DNA from: a virus | Virus record (IMG/VR): IMGVR_UViG_3300024348_000037 | Location: 1 to 60,110 of that record | Direction: 5' to 3' (one strand) | DNA length: 60,110 bases | Part shown: positions 29,429-38,587 of the stretch, piece after piece | How positions within the stretch are numbered: position 1 is the first letter of the stretch | How the letters are laid out: each line of letters opens with the position of its first letter | The notes under the pieces: model-generated | What the model was told of the DNA's origin: nothing | The model's database searches: none | The model's input: only the letters and a program-made list of their open reading frames with translations | Made by a program: the position numbers and the translations under genes

Positions 29429-30717
29429 TATTGAGGTTTCTTTTCTTCTTTATTGCTAAGAGCGCCTTCTATGTAACCCGTAACATCAGCTTGTGTTTTA
29501 TTAATATCAAATTCAAGGCCTGCAGCATTAATACCTTTTTGTATTTCTTTCTTGAAAGTTTCAAAACTTTCACTCAAACGATCTCCGCCTTCTCTGCCAT
29601 AATCGCGCGACGTTTGAATCTGTGTTTCAAGCATTGAAATTGAACATTCAATAAATGCCGGATGACTCGTGCCTTCAAAGAATGCAGGAATTCCTTGCGG
29701 AGAATAATTTAGATCGATTGATTGAATGAGACACGGCATAAATTGAATTAATCCAGGTTCACCTTTCATAATTCTTAACTCTGGTTGACATAAGAAAGGA
29801 TATGCGAGCGCCGCAGTTCCTAAGCTGCTATATGATGGCAAAGCATATGCTTTCATTGCTTTCAACAGATTCATTAACTGCTGACTTTCTTCTGGATTAC
29901 GAGGAGCAAACGTCCATTCGAATCGATGCTGACGAAGAGGAACACCGCTAAATAAAGCTTGTATATGAGGATTTGGAACGGCCCCAATCGCTTGAGCTCC
30001 GAGAGCTCCTATATCATTTGTTGATGTAACCATCGCGCTAAAAGCAAGCGCCGCGACCGAATTTGTTATCGCTTGTGTTCGTTCTTTACCACCGGGTGAG
30101 CTTATAAAGTTTTGCATCGCATCTGCAATTCCACCTTTCAGACCAGTGGCGTTTGGAGCGACTTCAATATCAAAGCTTTCTCTTATTCCTTTCGGAAGAG
30201 GAAGCGCAAATGCTTGTACAAACTTGAGATCTCCTTTTGTATGAGGAGAAGGACGTTGGTATTGTTTAAACTTAAATGACATATAATAATTTTCACTGAT
30301 ATGATCAGGAAACTGCATCGTATCTAGGCCATCAACAGTAATATTATTTGAAGCTCTTTGAATAGCATCAACATATGTTTCGGCAAAAGCAGAAGCACCT
30401 ATGATATTACCATTCTGCGGATTAAAATTGTTACGAATGTCGGCGCAAGATGCTCGCTTCATTTCACTCGTAAATGTTTGGAAATACTTGTCTTCAAGAC
30501 CAGCAGTTAAAGAATCGCCGAATCTTGCAGAAAGTTTTGCTGCGGTTGCATCAGAAAATCCTACCTTCTTTAATGCTTTGGCAAAAAGATCTTCGACCGC
30601 ATTCTCGAGTTTATCTTCGAGCTTATTCGTAATATTTCGAAGCGTTCTGTTTATAAGCCCGCCAGCATCTTTCTTTAGTCTGTCTAAGTTTACTAGTCGA
30701 TCATCTCTTCCGGCCAT
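29428..30717 (-). CDS. 48: Baseplate tail-tube cap gp48
   Basis: 429 aa from ATG 30717. An in-frame TTG four codons upstream is less likely because the GAGA ribosome site is spaced for the ATG. The segment LRQHRFEWTFAPRNPEESQQ then LMNLLKAMKAYALPS, and later SIDLNYSPQGIPAFFEGTSH, are typical of gp48/gp54-type tube-fold proteins. Residues 1-60 are basic and helical. gp48 forms the first ring on the hub on which gp54 and gp19 stack. It heads the minus-strand late block and diverges from gp4. Confidence 0.85.
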   Translation of the reverse strand: MAGRDDRLVNLDRLKKDAGGLINRTLRNITNKLEDKLENAVEDLFAKALKKVGFSDATAAKLSARFGDSLTAGLEDKYFQTFTSEMKRASCADIRNNFNPQNGNIIGASAFAETYVDAIQRASNNITVDGLDTMQFPDHISENYYMSFKFKQYQRPSPHTKGDLKFVQAFALPLPKGIRESFDIEVAPNATGLKGGIADAMQNFISSPGGKERTQAITNSVAALAFSAMVTSTNDIGALGAQAIGAVPNPHIQALFSGVPLRQHRFEWTFAPRNPEESQQLMNLLKAMKAYALPSYSSLGTAALAYPFLCQPELRIMKGEPGLIQFMPCLIQSIDLNYSPQGIPAFFEGTSHPAFIECSISMLETQIQTSRDYGREGGDRLSESFETFKKEIQKGINAAGLEFDINKTQADVTGYIEGALSNKEEKKPQ

Positions 30718-30749
30718 GTTGTCTCTCAAATTTAAAAAGGCTATCAGCT

Positions 30750-30761
30750 TATTTATAAATA
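30750..30761. promoter_or_regulatory. Palindromic divergent late promoter (TATTTATAAATA)
   Basis: The 12-bp box is its own reverse complement and contains TATAAATA on both strands, overlapping by 4 bp (plus 30754-30761, minus 30750-30757). It lies between gp48 (minus) and gp4 (plus). Plus-strand transcription should start at or next to the gp4 ATG (30767); minus-strand transcription leaves a leader of about 27 nt for gp48. Confidence 0.8.
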
Positions 30762-30766
30762 GATTT

Positions 30767-31207
30767 ATGGCTTATCAAGGAAAGTTTCGACCAAAGGATA
30801 TAAAGAAATATCTCGGAGACTCGAACAATATCGTATATCGTAGTCGATGGGAACTCAAGTTCATGATGTACTTAGATTCTCATCCGAATGTTGTGCAATG
30901 GGGAAGCGAAGAGTTAGTCATTCCTTATCGCTCTCCTCTCGACAATCGTGTACATCGATACTTTCCAGACTTCATCGTAAAGAAAAAATCACCAGAAGGT
31001 AAAATCGATACGATTGTCGTTGAAATAAAACCCCATGCGCAGACGCGGCCTCCAGTGGTGATAAATAAGCCTAATAAGCGTTATATTAATGAAGTCATGA
31101 CGTGGGGTGTCAACGAAGCCAAGTGGAGAGCTGCAGCGGTATACTGCAACGATCGTGGTTGGAAGTTCGATATACTCACCGAAAAAGAATTAGGAATTAA
31201 GTTTTAA
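30767..31207 (+). CDS. 4: Head completion protein gp4
   Basis: 146 aa from ATG 30767. The start MAYQGKFRPKDIKKYLGDSN matches the T4 gp4 start (G.Y.GKFRPKNP.KYLGD), followed by YRSRWELKFMMYLDSHPNV, WGSEELVIPYRSPLD, HRYFPDFIVKKK, VVEIKPHAQT and WGVNEAKW. gp4 acts after DNA packaging to make heads able to join tails, and its core resembles an endonuclease fold (D-F, E-I-K). The open frame extends upstream but those residues lie in the gp48 promoter and antisense, so the ATG is preferred. The TATAAATA box ends 5 nt before it: a leaderless mRNA is likely. Confidence 0.93.
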   Translation: MAYQGKFRPKDIKKYLGDSNNIVYRSRWELKFMMYLDSHPNVVQWGSEELVIPYRSPLDNRVHRYFPDFIVKKKSPEGKIDTIVVEIKPHAQTRPPVVINKPNKRYINEVMTWGVNEAKWRAAAVYCNDRGWKFDILTEKELGIKF

Positions 31208-31806
31208 TGGCAATCGTATTTGATACCATCATCACACAAGGTGTTCGTTCTGGTCAGATTCCAGCGCGGACAAACTCTGCGCGCGATTGGTTTCGAGATA
31301 CTGCAGGCAAGATGAATCGTATTAATGAGCGTGAGATGATGAAGGGTGACATCAGTCGTATGACTACTCAGCCTTTGCTCGGCTCAATGTACATGTTCTA
31401 CTATGATCCGAAATGGAAAGATGAGCTTCCATATTACGATAGATTTCCTTTGATCTTTCCATATAAGAAAGTCAAGGGTGGATTTATGGGATTGAATCTA
31501 CACTATCTTCCTTTGCAGCTGAGAGCAAAGTTAATGGACGGACTATATGACTTTGCAAACAATACACGTTATGACGAGTCGACAAAGCTTAAACTGAGTT
31601 ATGAACTCATGACTCAAGCAGCAAAGCTAAGATGGTATGCTCCATGCATTAAGCATTATTTGGCTTCACATGTACAATCAAAGTTTATGTACGTTTATCC
31701 TTCAGAATGGGACATCGCATTGTTTTTGCCAACAGAACGCTTTGTCAAAGCAAAGAAGAATCAAGTTTGGATGGATACGAAAAGAATGCTGGGAGTTACT
31801 AAGTAA
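31207..31806 (+). CDS. Conserved T4-superfamily protein beside gp4 (possible DNA-end protector gp2)
   Basis: 199 aa. Conserved-looking segments: LGSMYMFYYDPKWKDELPYY then DRFPLIFPYKK, GGFMGLNLHYLPLQLRAKLM and YPSEWDIALFLPTERF. Proteins with the 'PYYDxFPL.FP' and 'GLNLHYLP' motifs are common in T4-like phages next to gp4. In T4 the neighbour of gp4 is gp2, which protects the packaged DNA ends from RecBCD; I suspect but cannot prove this identity. One-base overlap with gp4 and with gp54 indicates one operon. Confidence 0.7.
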   Translation: MAIVFDTIITQGVRSGQIPARTNSARDWFRDTAGKMNRINEREMMKGDISRMTTQPLLGSMYMFYYDPKWKDELPYYDRFPLIFPYKKVKGGFMGLNLHYLPLQLRAKLMDGLYDFANNTRYDESTKLKLSYELMTQAAKLRWYAPCIKHYLASHVQSKFMYVYPSEWDIALFLPTERFVKAKKNQVWMDTKRMLGVTK

Positions 31807-33257
31807 TGACAGATAATGCAGCTATACTACAAGCCAATCGTATGGGCGTCACTCCGCCAAAAAAAGAAAGAGATAGGGGCTCACCAGCTAAAATAGCAGC
31901 CGGTGTTGAACAACGCCAACAGACGCGCATTGCTCAAGAAGCAGAGGCAGAGTGGCAACGGTTTGCTTCCTCTCCCCAAGGAAAAGCAACTCTTCTTAGT
32001 AACCGCGATAAACTTCAAGATCAATTAGAAAGTCAACGTGCGCAATCTCGCGGAGGATTAACCTCTGCTCAATTGGCTGCGCAATCAAGAAAGCAAACAC
32101 GTCAAAGATATATAGCAGCTTTTGTCAAATCAAAAAACGAAGAAGAAGATCGTGGAAATTCTACACGCCTTGCAAATCAAGCGCGAGTTAATGGCGGAAG
32201 CGGTGGTGCACAAGGTGCAGCTGCGAAACCTGTGGTTGTCGCAAAAACACAAGTAGCTAAAGGCACCAATACTAATACAAAAGAAGAAAATCTCAATTAT
32301 ATTGAAACTAAAAATTCCGAATTTAGCACAGGTGAACGTACTAAAGGCATATTTAATATCGGTCGATTCCGAGCCGAAGTTTCTGGTGCAGATAGTATAC
32401 TTCCTACACACAGCTTCTTAACAGTTTTTGCTCCGATGCCATGGGCAATAAAAAAGTTTCCAGCCGGAAATCTCGATTCGATTCTGACAATGAGATGTGA
32501 CAACGTTGTTCTTCCTTCTATTAATCTATTACAAGAACAAAATATCAGAAGATACGGATTTGGCCCAGTTGAAAACGTCGCGTATGGAGTAAATGTCGGA
32601 GACTTTACGCTCCAGTTTATCGTCGATAAAGACGCGTTGGTTGTAGAATTCTTTGAAGAATGGTTAAATTTAATTGTCAATCGCGACTCTTTTGGTGGCG
32701 CGAATATGAATAATAATAAAATTGGTGGTATGCGAAGACCATATGAGATCGCTTACAAAGATACGTATGCGTGTCCGAATGTAAACGTATTTGTATATGA
32801 TCGATCACAAAATGCTGTGATGGAATATCATATATATGATGTGTTTCCTACCGGCATACAAAGCATGAATATGTCATGGAGCGAAGAAAATACTTTAATG
32901 AAGTTAAACATCACTTTTTCTTTTACTGATCTTCGAATTGAAAGATCGAAATCGAAGAATAAAAAAAGCCAATCGATTAATGATGAAATTAAAGTGACTG
33001 CGACTGGTCCGTATGCGGTTCAAGGAATGGGCGCTGGAGGTGTTGTTGATCTTGCTACTCTCGATCCAACCGGTGCTCGAGGTCTCGAACTGACAGATCT
33101 ATCAAATGAAACTACGATTATCGGCGATGGATTTAGAACGAGAGGTTCTTCGCCGCCTCTTCCACCAGACACATTTTCTAACCGCGGCGTTGAACTCGCC
33201 GGGTTTCCGAAACGATATGACACTCTTGGAAATCAAATAACAACTGTCGAATCATAA
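31806..33257 (+). CDS. 54: Tail tube initiator gp54-like
   Basis: 483 aa. Residues 1-165 are a polar, Gln/Ala-rich, helical extension absent from T4 gp54 (320 aa). The following part has the tail-tube fold: NVVLPSINLLQEQNIRRYGF, GDFTLQFIVDKDALVVEFFE, YEIAYKDTYACPNVNVFVYD, VFPTGIQSMNMSWSEENTLM and LNITFSFTDLRI, matching the gp19/gp54 family pattern. gp54 sits on gp48 and starts gp19 polymerisation. The call is based on fold pattern and tail-assembly context; a tube-like hub ring is the alternative. Confidence 0.75.
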   Translation: MTDNAAILQANRMGVTPPKKERDRGSPAKIAAGVEQRQQTRIAQEAEAEWQRFASSPQGKATLLSNRDKLQDQLESQRAQSRGGLTSAQLAAQSRKQTRQRYIAAFVKSKNEEEDRGNSTRLANQARVNGGSGGAQGAAAKPVVVAKTQVAKGTNTNTKEENLNYIETKNSEFSTGERTKGIFNIGRFRAEVSGADSILPTHSFLTVFAPMPWAIKKFPAGNLDSILTMRCDNVVLPSINLLQEQNIRRYGFGPVENVAYGVNVGDFTLQFIVDKDALVVEFFEEWLNLIVNRDSFGGANMNNNKIGGMRRPYEIAYKDTYACPNVNVFVYDRSQNAVMEYHIYDVFPTGIQSMNMSWSEENTLMKLNITFSFTDLRIERSKSKNKKSQSINDEIKVTATGPYAVQGMGAGGVVDLATLDPTGARGLELTDLSNETTIIGDGFRTRGSSPPLPPDTFSNRGVELAGFPKRYDTLGNQITTVES

Positions 33258-33280
33258 TTTATAATTTAGGAGAATATATA

Positions 33281-33991
33281 ATGCCTTTGCCAAAAATCGA
33301 CCAACCACTCTTTGACGTGACGATCCCCTCTTCAAAGAAAAAGATTCTCTTTCGACCATTCTTGGTGAAAGAAGAAAAGATCTTGCTGATTTCTCAGCAA
33401 GGTGGAGAAGATACTGATGTGATCAGAGCCATCAAACAGATTTTAAGACTGTGCGTGCAAGACGAAGACTTTGATGTCGATAAGCTTACGACTTTTGATC
33501 TTGAATATTTGTTCTTAAAGCTTCGTGCGAAGTCTGTCAATAATATTGTTAAACTGTCTTATCGTGACAACGAAGACGATAAGGTTTATGACTTCGAACT
33601 GAATCTCGATACGATTGAAGTCGAAATGCCAGAAGGTGTTGATTCGACTATTAAATTGTCTGATAATATTGCAATGATTATGAAGTATCCGAGCTCGAGC
33701 ATCACTGATAAGATCACGCAGTTTGATAATGAAGTCGATCTCATGACATTCTTTATCATCAATTGTATTGATACGATCGTAACAGAAGATGAAATCTATC
33801 CTGCTTCTGAATATACAGACAAAGAACTCGAAGAGTTTCTCGATCAATTGCCAGTCAATTCTTTCGATTTAATTCGACAATTCTTTGAGAAGATGCCGAA
33901 GTTATATCATAAGATTGAATACACAAATGAACTTGGTAATGATAGGAGTATCGAGTTAACGAATCTCAAAGATTTTTTTATGTGGCGCTGA
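33281..33991 (+). CDS. 26: Baseplate hub/assembly protein gp26-like
   Basis: 236 aa of the T4 gp26 family (phage baseplate protein family). Conserved parts: FDVTIPSSKKKILFRPFLVK, EEKILLISQQGGEDTDVIRA, IKQILRLCVQDEDFDVDKLT, and FDLEYLFLKLRAKSV. The gene has a good AGGAG ribosome site. Its last codons are GAT TTT TTT ATG TGG CGC TGA; the T7 run is a perfect -1 slippery site. gp26 helps build the hub. In other tailed phages, proteins in this place act as tail assembly chaperones made by frameshifting, which fits the slippery site. Confidence 0.88.
   Translation: MPLPKIDQPLFDVTIPSSKKKILFRPFLVKEEKILLISQQGGEDTDVIRAIKQILRLCVQDEDFDVDKLTTFDLEYLFLKLRAKSVNNIVKLSYRDNEDDKVYDFELNLDTIEVEMPEGVDSTIKLSDNIAMIMKYPSSSITDKITQFDNEVDLMTFFIINCIDTIVTEDEIYPASEYTDKELEEFLDQLPVNSFDLIRQFFEKMPKLYHKIEYTNELGNDRSIELTNLKDFFMWR
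33973..33979 (+). promoter_or_regulatory. Candidate -1 ribosomal frameshift site (T TTT TTT)
   Basis: In the gp26 frame the heptamer splits as T_TTT_TTT, four codons before the TGA at 33989. A -1 slip continues TAT GTG GCG CTG and enters the 60-aa frame without a stop, giving a fusion of about 295 aa. The layout mimics the G/GT tail chaperone frameshifts of lambda-like and P2-like phages. Confidence 0.6.
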
Positions 33992-34164
33992 GTCACAACT
34001 CGCTGCAAAACTACTATAGTATGATCTTTGCTTTGGCTCAACATCACAAATATTCGATCACTGAGATTGAAAACTTGATACCATATGAAAGAGATCTCTA
34101 CGTTGATTTGTTAATGGCTCATCTTGAAGAACAGAGACAAGAAATAGAGAGTAGAAGAAAGTAA
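33982..34164 (+). CDS. Small ORF in gp51 position, likely made by frameshift or coupling
   Basis: 60 aa counted from a GTG at 33982, overlapping the gp26 gene by 10 nt in the -1 frame. The sequence (NYYSMIFALAQHHKYSITEI, then PYERDLYVDLLMAHLEEQ) is helical and acidic and looks like the second part of tail assembly chaperones, where YERD-type motifs and M-I-F-A-L-A are common. In T4, gene 51 follows gene 26 and encodes a hub assembly catalyst. It has no independent strong ribosome site, so expression by -1 frameshift or reinitiation is likely. It shares one base with the next gene. Confidence 0.7.
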   Translation: MALSHNSLQNYYSMIFALAQHHKYSITEIENLIPYERDLYVDLLMAHLEEQRQEIESRRK

Positions 34165-36407
34165 TGCCGTTATTTGAAACACCGGTTTCTGCTGCAGTAA
34201 AATCGACCATCGAAGGTACTTTTGGTCTAGCAGGAAAAGTAGTAGAAGCTACTGGCAACGCCGTACGCGGAGTTGGAGAAGCGGTAGGAGGAGCTCTCGA
34301 AGGAGCTCTTTCTCCAGCACCAGTAACTGTTATTAACGGTGTTGGTATGGCAGGTCAAGCCGGAAAGTCGAAAGTTTCTGGTTCGGGCACTATTCCCGCT
34401 TCTCCTAAAAAATCTGCACGTCCGGCAGTCAATCCAAATATGCCTACAGAAAAACTGTTATTAGTAGCAGTAAACTATCTTTCTTCGATTGAAAAAACTC
34501 TTGAACAACAACTTCAGTTTGAGAGAAAAGCATTTCAACAACAAGCGCAGGCAGAAAAAGAAGCTTCGATCGAATCTGGCGGAAGCTCATTTCAAAACCC
34601 ATTTAGTAATTTAGGAGAAAAACTCGACGCGATAAAGGATAACGCCAAAGAAAGAGCTGGAACTGTTGGAAAACTTTTAATCGGTGCCGGTTTATTTGGC
34701 GCGCTTGGCCTCGCTGCTCTTGGAAATTTAGACACATCACAATTAGAAGAACTGAAATCGAATTGGGCTGCTTTCACTGATAAGATATCTCCTATCATTG
34801 GTTTCGTTGAAAATTTTGCGGCTGCATTGGGCACAACAGCAATCGCAGGAGCGGCAGTAGGAAGTGTCTTCGGTTGGAGAGGAGCACTCCTCGGATTAAT
34901 TGGTGGGAAAATATATGAAGATGCTTATGGAACATTTAATGAAAAAACAGGACAAAGAGAAGGTGGTCAAGGACTGCTTTCATCGATAGTCAGTAATTTT
35001 CCACTCGCAGCAGTAGCTATAGCTCCTGTCACCGCTATTAAATTTGCATATAAAGGGCTTAAAACTATAGCAGGCGCACTTACTGCTTTTACAAAAAAAC
35101 AAGCAGCAAGATTTATGGCATGGTTTGCAGAAAAAGCCTTTATACGTTTCGCTTTCTCTGCATACGGTAAAAATAGATTGTGGAATCTCTTTTTAAGATA
35201 CTTAGAAAAGAAAGCTCAGCAAAGACTTCTTGCTCAAATCGCAGCGGTCGGAGCTACAGCCGCGGCGGCTACTGTTGCTGAAGCCGCGGTAGCTTCTACT
35301 GGCGTAGGTATTCCAGTTGCGGCTGTTTCTGCTGTGGTAACAAAACTAATAGCAGCTGGTTTTACGGCTTGGTTGTTATGGGATTTGTATCAAATCTGGG
35401 TAGAATTCTCTGAGACGGCAGAGGCAAGGGCACAAGAAGCCACTGATGATGAAAGAGCAAATGCATCTCCTGTATCTACAGCCACAACATCTGACGCGAC
35501 ATCAACATCCGGATCTGCAAATATATCAGGCGCGCCTGTGGCTTCTGCAGATCAAATGCAAAATCTTCCTTCAATTCCTGCGGATGTAGAAAAAATCCTT
35601 GCTACTATTAGAACACGCGAGTCTGGTGGCAATTATGGTATTCCACATCCTAATGGTATGCCAAGTCAAACTGCATCTGGAGCTTATGCCTTTACAAATG
35701 GATCTTGGCAAGGTTTAACCAAAAAGTATAATATAGGAACAGAATATAGCAGCGCCTATCTTGCTCCGCCGCCTATTCAAGATGCTGTTGCCGCAAAATA
35801 CGTTCAAGAAATATTACAAAAAGCCGGCGGTGATGTTTCGAAAGTTCCACTTGCCTGGTATACAGGCAATATACAAGGAAAGATGTCTGCAAAGGCGCTT
35901 GCTGTAAACAATGGTATGACTCCACAAGCATATCAAGCAAAATGGATGGCAGATTATACCGGTGGAAAATATTCGGCTTCTTCTTATGATTCGCAAGGAG
36001 CAAGTTCGCAACAATCAGCCGGTGTTATGGGTTCTCTTGCTGATTTAGGTAAAGGTGCAATTGAAAGCGCCGGTAAAGTGCTTCAAGCCAGTCTTGGAGA
36101 GATGAGTCTTACAACCGGTTCGCAGTTATCTAATAAATTTAATAATAATATGCAAACTCCTGTAAAATCAGAATCTGCGGCAGCTGCCAAAATTTCTAAA
36201 ATATCTACAGAATTACAAAACACTGTTGATTTAGGGAAATTAGATTCTACTAAAGCAGCAACTGAACCAGCATCTACAAGTATATCTCCTATTGGAAAAC
36301 CCGGATCTTCAAACGATAGTAAGCGAGATCACTTTGATCCGAATTACCCAAGCGATAGCTTGCTTATGGAAAAATATATGCAACATCAAAAATTGGTAAT
36401 TGCATAA
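34164..36407 (+). CDS. Hub/tape-measure-like protein with lytic transglycosylase domain
   Basis: 747 aa. Residues 1-60 are Gly/Ala/Val-rich and helical; 110-150 are coiled coil (KTLEQQLQFERKAFQQQAQA); several hydrophobic segments follow (residues about 165-190, 220-250, 345-410). Residues 470-610 form a transglycosylase-like domain: ATIRTRESGGNYG with the likely catalytic Glu486, then SGAYAFTNGSWQGLTKKYNI, QDAVAAKYVQEIL and WYTGNI. Residues 620-665 are a module shared with the next protein (GEMSLTTGSQLSNKFNNNM). It may be the tape measure or an ejected hub protein that opens the cell wall. This would replace the lysozyme missing from gp5. Confidence 0.8.
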   Translation: MPLFETPVSAAVKSTIEGTFGLAGKVVEATGNAVRGVGEAVGGALEGALSPAPVTVINGVGMAGQAGKSKVSGSGTIPASPKKSARPAVNPNMPTEKLLLVAVNYLSSIEKTLEQQLQFERKAFQQQAQAEKEASIESGGSSFQNPFSNLGEKLDAIKDNAKERAGTVGKLLIGAGLFGALGLAALGNLDTSQLEELKSNWAAFTDKISPIIGFVENFAAALGTTAIAGAAVGSVFGWRGALLGLIGGKIYEDAYGTFNEKTGQREGGQGLLSSIVSNFPLAAVAIAPVTAIKFAYKGLKTIAGALTAFTKKQAARFMAWFAEKAFIRFAFSAYGKNRLWNLFLRYLEKKAQQRLLAQIAAVGATAAAATVAEAAVASTGVGIPVAAVSAVVTKLIAAGFTAWLLWDLYQIWVEFSETAEARAQEATDDERANASPVSTATTSDATSTSGSANISGAPVASADQMQNLPSIPADVEKILATIRTRESGGNYGIPHPNGMPSQTASGAYAFTNGSWQGLTKKYNIGTEYSSAYLAPPPIQDAVAAKYVQEILQKAGGDVSKVPLAWYTGNIQGKMSAKALAVNNGMTPQAYQAKWMADYTGGKYSASSYDSQGASSQQSAGVMGSLADLGKGAIESAGKVLQASLGEMSLTTGSQLSNKFNNNMQTPVKSESAAAAKISKISTELQNTVDLGKLDSTKAATEPASTSISPIGKPGSSNDSKRDHFDPNYPSDSLLMEKYMQHQKLVIA

Positions 36408-38587
36408 TGGCTGAACCGGTTACGATTGGCGGTCAAACCTTCATTAAAACAGATGACGGGTGGGTAGATCAAAAATCAAAAATAAGAGCGCCTGAAGGCC
36501 TACTTAAGCTTTTGAATAATCTTCAATCTGAGAATTCTCTTTCTGAAGGCAAGAAGAAGCGTGTTCGTATTGATCCTTCTCGACCTGTTATAAAACTCGG
36601 TAAAACAGAATATGTATGGGATCTCAACGGAAAAGTATGGATCGATAAGAAAACAAGAGAAGCTTCGAATCCGCGTTTTAGCTTATTGATTGAAGCAACA
36701 TATCAGTCGACACTCGGCAGTGATCAGTTACAAGATCCCGGTACACCAACTCCAAGCACTGCGGCCGCAAAAGCAGCAATGAAAGATGTGCTTGCAAATA
36801 ATATGTTTGCAACAAATCAAAAAACAAAAACTTCGAAGACAGGAAGCGGCACACTTCCTTCAATGAGTAATATTAAAATTAATTCTCCTATCGTTCAGAT
36901 GATAGAGAAGCTAGCTACGATTGACGGTTATCTCAAGCAAAGATTAAATAACAATATATCTTCATATAATACGCGCAGTGTTTCTACAAAAGAACAATCG
37001 ATAGAACAAGGTGCATCGCAAACAGATGCTACTCCTAATTTAGAACAAGAAAAAGTCGATGCTGAAGTAGAAAAAGCAAATAAAGAATCGAATGGTATAT
37101 TATTAGGTGCAGCTGTTGCAGCTGGAGCTCTTTTTATATCTCAACTCGATCCGGTAAAAGAAACTTTTAATGCTATTGTAAACTTTGCAAAAGGTGTTTA
37201 TGATTTTGCATCAGGAATAGCTGGAGTTTTTAATGACGGCCTACGCAATATTGTAGGAACTCCAGAGTCAAGAGCAGCAGAAAAATCATCGACTGAAACT
37301 GGTTCTTCTGCAACAGACGTAACACAACCTGCTGGCGGAATGCAACAAACCAGCGACCAATCAGAAGATTCCACATCATTTTCAGGTCCAAAACAATCTG
37401 TTGCTTCCGGTAATAAAGCTTCAAGCGGACCGAATTCACCCGAAGAAATTTTAACTGCTTTTCCGGGGCCTAAATCTTCTTCAAAATCCGGTACTTCCGG
37501 TGGCACAACAGGGTCAAAAGGTTCTGATGCTACTCGCGCTTCTTCTGCAACCGCTGTAACGCCTTCTTCTGCAGCTACAACTCCTTCTTCTGCAGCGCCT
37601 GCTTCTGCAACTCCTGCGAATTCTTCTGCAACTCCTGCAGCTACTCCAGCTACTACGGCACCAGCTAATGGTACAAAATCTACGTCGGCGGCACAAGCAA
37701 CGCAGACAGGCGGATCTTCTCCTGGCGCAACTTCTAATGAATCATTGAATAAAGCTGCACGGCTGGCTGCTAGCCAAGTTGGTATTGGTGAATCACAAAT
37801 AGGCAACTATTTAAGACAAGGTGGAGTCGGATTAGATCCGCGAAATGAAAAATGGTGCTCGGCATTTGTAAACTCTACGCTCGCTCAAGCTGGATTAAAA
37901 GGCGCAACTAATGTAGCCAATAGCTTTCAAAAATGGGGAGATAATGTTCCAGTATCTTCTGTTCAAGAAGGCGACATTGTTATTCAAACTCGTGGTTTAG
38001 GCCCAGATGTTGCTGGTGGCCATATAGGTATCGCAACAGGCGTAAGACAAGGAAACAAAGTCGAGCTTATAGCCGGTAACACTAGCAATAAAGTTAAGAG
38101 ATATTTTTTAGATAACAATGCTAAAAATGGATTGCAAATAAGAAGATACAACCCGCAAAAACCATATGGTAAAGGAGCAGTGGGAGGAGCGCCATTAGGA
38201 GGAACCGGAGATAGCGCTTTGGAACAAGCGATTGGAGCAGGAGTTGATTTAACGGAAGGCGCGATCAAGGCGGTTGGAAATATTCTAAGTGCGGCTTTAG
38301 GACCTATGAGTATTACTACTGGATCACAGCTTCAAAATAGCTTTAATAGTACAATGTCAAGTGATATAGGAAAAGCAGCAAGAGAAAAAACAAATGCGAT
38401 TGTCGATTCAAAAATTATAGAATCTGCAGCTGCTACGATAAAGTCGAGTTCAACAGATACAAAGGCTTCTGCGAGTTCTTCTCAAATGCAAATCGCTGAG
38501 TCGACTGGAGATAACGCCAGCATTCAATATTACTTAACTCGTATGGGATTTGCGCCGCTCGATTATAAACAAGCGGCAACAGTATAA
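36407..38587 (+). CDS. Hub/tape-measure-like protein with Cys/His peptidase (TIGR02594/CHAP-like) domain
   Basis: 726 aa. Residues 1-110 are a small beta domain (TIGGQTFIKTDDGWVDQKS); a hydrophobic segment lies about 225-245; residues 290-440 are a Ser/Ala/Thr/Pro-rich linker. Residues 445-590 are a CHAP/NlpC-like domain of the TIGR02594 type: AARLAASQVGIGESQIGNYL, KWCSAFVNSTLAQ with Cys484, VQEGDIVIQ and GGHIGIATGV with His539. Residues 611-650 (GPMSITTGSQLQNSFNSTM) repeat the C-terminal module of the preceding protein. It likely cleaves peptide cross-links during DNA entry. One-base overlap with the previous gene; the stop is followed by a terminator hairpin. Confidence 0.82.
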   Translation: MAEPVTIGGQTFIKTDDGWVDQKSKIRAPEGLLKLLNNLQSENSLSEGKKKRVRIDPSRPVIKLGKTEYVWDLNGKVWIDKKTREASNPRFSLLIEATYQSTLGSDQLQDPGTPTPSTAAAKAAMKDVLANNMFATNQKTKTSKTGSGTLPSMSNIKINSPIVQMIEKLATIDGYLKQRLNNNISSYNTRSVSTKEQSIEQGASQTDATPNLEQEKVDAEVEKANKESNGILLGAAVAAGALFISQLDPVKETFNAIVNFAKGVYDFASGIAGVFNDGLRNIVGTPESRAAEKSSTETGSSATDVTQPAGGMQQTSDQSEDSTSFSGPKQSVASGNKASSGPNSPEEILTAFPGPKSSSKSGTSGGTTGSKGSDATRASSATAVTPSSAATTPSSAAPASATPANSSATPAATPATTAPANGTKSTSAAQATQTGGSSPGATSNESLNKAARLAASQVGIGESQIGNYLRQGGVGLDPRNEKWCSAFVNSTLAQAGLKGATNVANSFQKWGDNVPVSSVQEGDIVIQTRGLGPDVAGGHIGIATGVRQGNKVELIAGNTSNKVKRYFLDNNAKNGLQIRRYNPQKPYGKGAVGGAPLGGTGDSALEQAIGAGVDLTEGAIKAVGNILSAALGPMSITTGSQLQNSFNSTMSSDIGKAAREKTNAIVDSKIIESAAATIKSSSTDTKASASSSQMQIAESTGDNASIQYYLTRMGFAPLDYKQAATV

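Follow-up and report, generated by a model that had tools for sequence, protein, structure and literature searches.

Gene 26 of this T4-like phage very probably makes two proteins from a single start. A programmed −1 frameshift at the heptamer T_TTT_TTT would yield a minority long form of gp26, and the two forms would act as a tail assembly chaperone pair. We reached this reading by comparing the window, that is, the whole stretch of 60,110 nucleotides under analysis, with its relatives. Four things were observed: the codon register of the site, its conservation, the coding constraint on the −1 frame and homology that runs across the junction. The first-pass annotation had proposed both that a −1 frameshift joins gp26 to the downstream ORF and that gp26 and gp51 form the chaperone pair; the first proposal is supported by conservation, coding and the junction alignment, and the second is likewise backed by the comparative evidence. 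The features concerned are listed in Table 1.

Table 1. Features around the 3' end of gene 26 (positions in the window)
Feature	Position	Strand	Evidence
Tail-tube-family protein (phrog_45; T4 gp54 position), directly upstream of gene 26	31806..33257	+	PHROGs 3.3e-30
Ribosome-binding site of gene 26, AGGAG, ATG 8 nt downstream	33268..33272	+	sequence reading
Gene 26, short product (TAC-N-like), 236 aa	33281..33991	+	PF12322 8.4e-55 (Pfam); phrog_150 6e-60 (PHROGs); AF2 pLDDT 85.7
Slippery heptamer T_TTT_TTT, gp26 register	33973..33979	+	sequence; kept as T_TTT_TTN in relatives
0-frame tail ATG TGG CGC TGA, read if no slip	33980..33991	+	sequence
−1 frame extension (TAC-C-like), 61 aa YVALSHNSL...ESRRK + TAA	33979..34164	+	phrog_634 1.3e-23 (PHROGs); T4 gp51 C-terminus alignment
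Predicted frameshift product gp26-51, 294 aa (233 aa frame 0 + 61 aa frame −1)	33281..34164	+	built from sequence; hhalign
747-aa protein, tape-measure position	34164..36407	+	start overlaps −1 ORF stop (TAATG); PF06737 E 0.03, below cut-off

The slippery heptamer and its conservation

In the window the 3' end of gp26 reads AAA GAT TTT TTT ATG TGG CGC TGA. The heptamer has the X_XXY_YYZ form in the gp26 frame and is followed by three sense codons and the stop; the coordinates and the register given for it in the first-pass annotation were correct. Past the slip the −1 frame reads K-D-F-F-Y-V-A-L-S and continues to a TAA at 34162-34164.

As the first-pass annotation had suggested, we looked at the conservation of the T-run in related phages. 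Homologous loci were collected from IMG/VR and annotated phage records, and 267 of them had a readable gp26 end. An in-frame T_TTT_TTN was present 0-3 codons 5' of the gp26 stop in 265 of these 267 loci. When the loci were clustered by protein identity, 37 of 38 clusters kept it at the 70% level and 19 of 20 at 50%. Elsewhere within gp26 the same word occurred once in 8590 codon steps. The chance of finding it in 37 clusters from synonymous codon usage alone is about 10^-20, a figure that treats the clusters as independent, which is true only roughly; the placement of the heptamer is far beyond chance. The gene also supplies an internal control, since the first Phe codon is TTT in all 37 clusters whereas TTT is used for the following one in only 7 of 30. 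The codon preceding the Phe pair encodes various amino acids (D, G, A, S, N), but its final base is always T. The 0-frame tail after the heptamer is variable among the relatives (0-3 codons). The heptamer is carried by cyanophages and by phages of Caulobacter, Cronobacter, Stenotrophomonas, Vibrio, Aeromonas, Rhizobium/Agrobacterium and Methylophilales.

The two exceptions among the 267 loci differ in kind. In one (L039) a TAG ends gp26 early, while the heptamer and the −1 ORF 3' of it are both intact; the TAG could be a sequencing error or the mark of a defective genome. In the other (L271:2240-2341), a close relative of Stenotrophomonas phage Moby, gp26 is read past the site in another frame, the shift that a T-run shorter by one base would give; this change may be natural or a sequencing slip at the T-run. 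The one true cluster exception is Pseudomonas phage Cygsa01 (L279:3270-3310), where the site reads ATT TTC ACC TAATG and the −1 ORF is retained. With its heptamer gone, this phage may now rely on reinitiation.

The site is a homopolymer (seven T's in the window), and the fusion could in principle come from an edited mRNA if RNA polymerase added a base on the T-run. Transcriptional slippage has, however, been described in bacteria on runs of about 9 (PMC5009743), longer than the run in the window, and 103 of 127 clusters at 90% identity carry only 6 T's, with none above 8. The strict codon register, together with an upstream Shine-Dalgarno (SD)-like element in the relatives (see below), points to ribosomes. 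We thus consider it extremely improbable that the polymerase makes the shift, and keep slipping by the ribosome as our reading.

Coding status and entry of the −1 frame

Over the 57 codons past the slip, the clade of the window showed 9267 synonymous versus 2136 non-synonymous single differences, these being pairwise counts and not independent events, whereas all possible single changes in the same codons stand at 96:417 (synonymous:non-synonymous). Because of this synonymous excess, we conclude that the −1 ORF evolves as a protein. A codon-position-3 bias was also seen in the −1 ORF of this clade. The PHROGs family matched by the −1 ORF of the window, phrog_634, is labelled 'baseplate hub assembly catalyst', and a search of NCBIfam gave no useful match for either gp26 or the extension.

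How this frame is entered was then the point on which a second explanation had to be weighed, namely that the downstream ORF is a separate gene, whose translation begins at GTG 33982 or by reinitiation after ribosomes have terminated at the gp26 stop. A 60-aa ORF does exist in the −1 frame of the window from this GTG, just past the heptamer, with its first ATG 14 codons in, at 34021; an ATG overlaps the gp26 stop in Cr30, Moby, K566, nt-1 and RL38J1, and Cygsa01 has its TAATG where the heptamer is missing. In the window, however, no SD core was found before the GTG or the ATG, so that neither offers an independent gene 51 a start with a ribosome-binding site; the first-pass annotation was right that the 60-residue ORF is real and that it has no good start. 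Only 12 of 37 clusters had an ATG no further than 12 codons from the slip (25 had none), and a start of any kind with an SD core was seen in just one of 37. A separate gene would, moreover, leave unexplained both the T_TTT_TTN of all 37 clusters and the residues conserved ahead of the candidate starts: the first post-slip residues follow [RLY]-[LIV]-x-[LFM] across clusters, and they partly precede or span the 0-frame stop. T4-type phages, for their part, always join this domain to a gp26-like N-terminus. A gene with its own start is very unlikely in our view, and a −1 frameshift from gp26 remains the preferred way into the frame.

The start of the small ORF is placed inconsistently in public records (L002, L088, L089 and similar). 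Where such a record lists a gene of 45-60 aa as 'baseplate hub assembly catalyst', its start is arbitrary and the annotation is probably mistaken for most of the phages concerned, and many of these small-ORF records should probably be a join with gp26.

Elements surrounding the heptamer

An SD-like core, formed by a Glu GAG codon and a Gly GGA or GGG codon, lies 12-15 nt 5' of the heptamer in 33 of 37 clusters. This element is well supported by codon statistics. At Gly column −4, where the bias is stronger than at any other Gly column in gp26, codons ending in a purine were used in 27 of 34 cases versus 95 of 287 elsewhere (Fisher 2.7e-7), and at Glu −5 the codon was GAG in 14 of 22 cases versus 230 of 850 (4e-4). 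In the window and its clade, the core is absent at the proper place, and the window thus does not fit an SD-stimulated frameshift of the dnaX type, for which an SD-like element would lie about 10 nt 5' of the heptamer. Clusters with T_TTT_TTT lack the core in 3 of 7 cases versus 1 of 30 for the others, a hint, from few cases, that the longer T_TTT_TTT compensates for the missing core. We tentatively suggest, as something possible rather than probable, that the upstream GAG GGR element tunes the chaperone frameshift in T4-like phages, and that clades such as that of the window have lost it, a loss possibly offset by T_TTT_TTT.

Downstream of the site, the window can fold a stem starting 5 nt past the heptamer. 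This stem is not kept in 29 distinct sequences of its clade, and mean fold z-scores were only mildly negative, so that a hairpin or pseudoknot stimulator was rejected as a candidate. Since the clade of the window has neither a conserved hairpin nor the SD-like element, the slip rate there could be low. The dnaX cassette of E. coli resembles most of the relatives, though not the window, in its SD-like element 5' of the heptamer. It differs in the heptamer itself and in its stem-loop, no conserved 3' counterpart of which was found here, and the outcome is opposite, as slipping here would give the longer product.

Relation to gp26 and gp51 of T4

Pairwise comparison with hhalign gave 99.7% between window-type and T4-type gp26, 99.6% between the fusion and T4-type gp51, with 232 columns aligned straight across the junction, and 99.5% between T4-type gp26 and gp51. 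The extension alone aligned with the gp51 C-terminus at a probability of 97.5%. PF12322 (Pfam) matched a T4-type gp51 at 2e-43, and phrog_150 covered both T4 gp26 (14-235) and T4 gp51 (13-280), the extension being present in gp51 only. T4 gp51 (249 aa) is thus a member of the gp26 family that ends in this C-terminal domain, and in T4-type gp51 a single frame runs from the gp26-like N-part into the same C-terminal domain. The window has both characters of the family, a short product matching PF12322 and phrog_150 and a predicted long product made of a gp26-like part and the gp51 C-terminal domain. The predicted frameshift fusion is therefore the best counterpart of T4 gp51, the small ORF corresponding to its C-terminal domain only. 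The first-pass annotation had taken the 60-aa ORF, at the gp51 position, for gp51, and this identification has to be corrected.

T4 gp26 is orthologous to gp26 of the window but, unlike the window, T4 obtains its short and long forms from two genes without a frameshift. These genes, 26 and 51, are separate and lie on opposite strands, and T_TTT_TTN is absent at the corresponding site of T4-type gp26 and gp51 genes. Other X_XXY_YYZ words occur close to the end of the gene in two T4-type gp26 sequences, and we took these as chance. The first-pass annotation had stated that homologues with two separate ORFs, each with its own ribosome site, would speak against frameshifting. Separate genes were indeed found, but only in the T4-type group, and there the domain is fused in frame to a second gp26-like copy; this arrangement fits the frameshift reading and does not refute it.

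We also considered T4 gp28 as a third paralogue, and rejected it when an hhalign comparison of gp28 with the profiles of the fusion and of gp51 gave nothing. T4 gp26 (L084:5803-6429) weakly matches phrog_1140, the gp28 family (9e-4, PHROGs).

Proposed mechanism and function

The slipping itself, its rate and the chaperone action are what we infer from these comparisons. Most ribosomes would terminate at 33991 and release the 236-aa gp26; in some, both tRNA-Phe would re-pair one base back, and reading through 34161 would produce the 294-aa fusion. Many short and few long copies may then coat the tape-measure protein, as lambda gpG and gpGT do, while the extra C-terminal domain might recruit tail-tube subunits or help to initiate the hub-tube complex. 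T4 would obtain the short product from gene 26 and the long one, with no frameshift, from its paralogue, gene 51. Like lambda gpG/gpGT, the window has a slippery heptamer shortly before the first ORF ends, among tail genes, and would give a short and a minority long product; the heptamers differ, and the likeness is one of layout. Two marks of a G/GT-type system were found, a slippery heptamer and a −1 ORF that overlaps the end of the short ORF and is under protein-level selection.

A further possibility is that the fusion is made, but that gp26 and gp51 are baseplate hub parts or catalysts and not tape-measure chaperones of the G/GT type. T4 genetics named both proteins hub assembly factors and some work put gp26 in the hub (PMC3004832), but this same source counts the two among the chaperones of hub assembly and states that gp51 is missing from the finished particle. 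In addition, a two-product −1 frameshift beside a tail-tube-family gene is the G/GT layout, and published bioinformatics assigns gp26 and gp51 as tail assembly chaperones. A role as hub parts or catalysts is therefore unlikely, and we retain the chaperone pair.

The AF2 model of gp26 was good, and a Foldseek search with it returned gp26-family proteins of many phages. Against the PDB, the model gave no significant match; the top probability among the matches listed was that of the HK97 tail assembly chaperone 2ob9 (0.41, TM 0.39 on its own length, E 1.2), a predicted fold likeness that serves as a lead only. The AF2 model of a natural long form (gp51 of L281) had a pLDDT of 57.5, too poor for use.

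Relation to published work

Genes 26 and 51 are reportedly named in the 2022 study of Vladimirov, Gautam and Davidson, which is also said to describe frameshifting in several T4-like groups.

According to Atkins et al. 2016 (PMC5009743), conservation of the G-T frameshift is wide among phages with long tails, 'except T4'. PRFect (PMC10885494) notes that some T4-like phages have one short and one long fused gene and no frameshifting, and the phage Adele paper (PMC12846349) cites Vladimirov et al. 2022 on the poly-T slippery sites of TAC-N genes from T4-like phages. As represented in these two papers, Vladimirov, Gautam and Davidson (Virology 2022, doi 10.1016/j.virol.2021.11.003) found that, among T4-like chaperones, some groups frameshift while others have separate short and long genes. 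Because the two-form frameshift chaperone of T4-like phages was thus already published in 2022, the window is one more example of a system already on record and not a new kind. It shares with that system the gp26 family, the poly-T slippery site at the 3' end and a −1 extension homologous to the gp51 C-terminus. We see no essential difference; what the window adds is a new clade of uncultured phage, whose heptamer is T_TTT_TTT and which lacks the SD-like element upstream. With this clade and several hundred related loci, T4-like phages appear to follow the tailed-phage rule of a two-form chaperone, and T4, with its separate genes 26 and 51, becomes the odd case. The reading would also give a concrete role to gp51, long called an essential assembly protein of unknown function.

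Neighbouring genes

The product of 34164-36407 would, from its position, be the tape measure; it has no significant family match in PHROGs or Pfam, only a weak transglycosylase-like one. The next gene, 36407-38587, encodes a large protein with a CHAP or tail-lysozyme-like region, and either of the two products could be the tape measure. Farther upstream, 30401-31207 encodes a head-closure (gp4-type) protein with a strong N-terminal match to a TnsA-like endonuclease (PF08722, 5.4e-23, Pfam); its listed start is probably too early.
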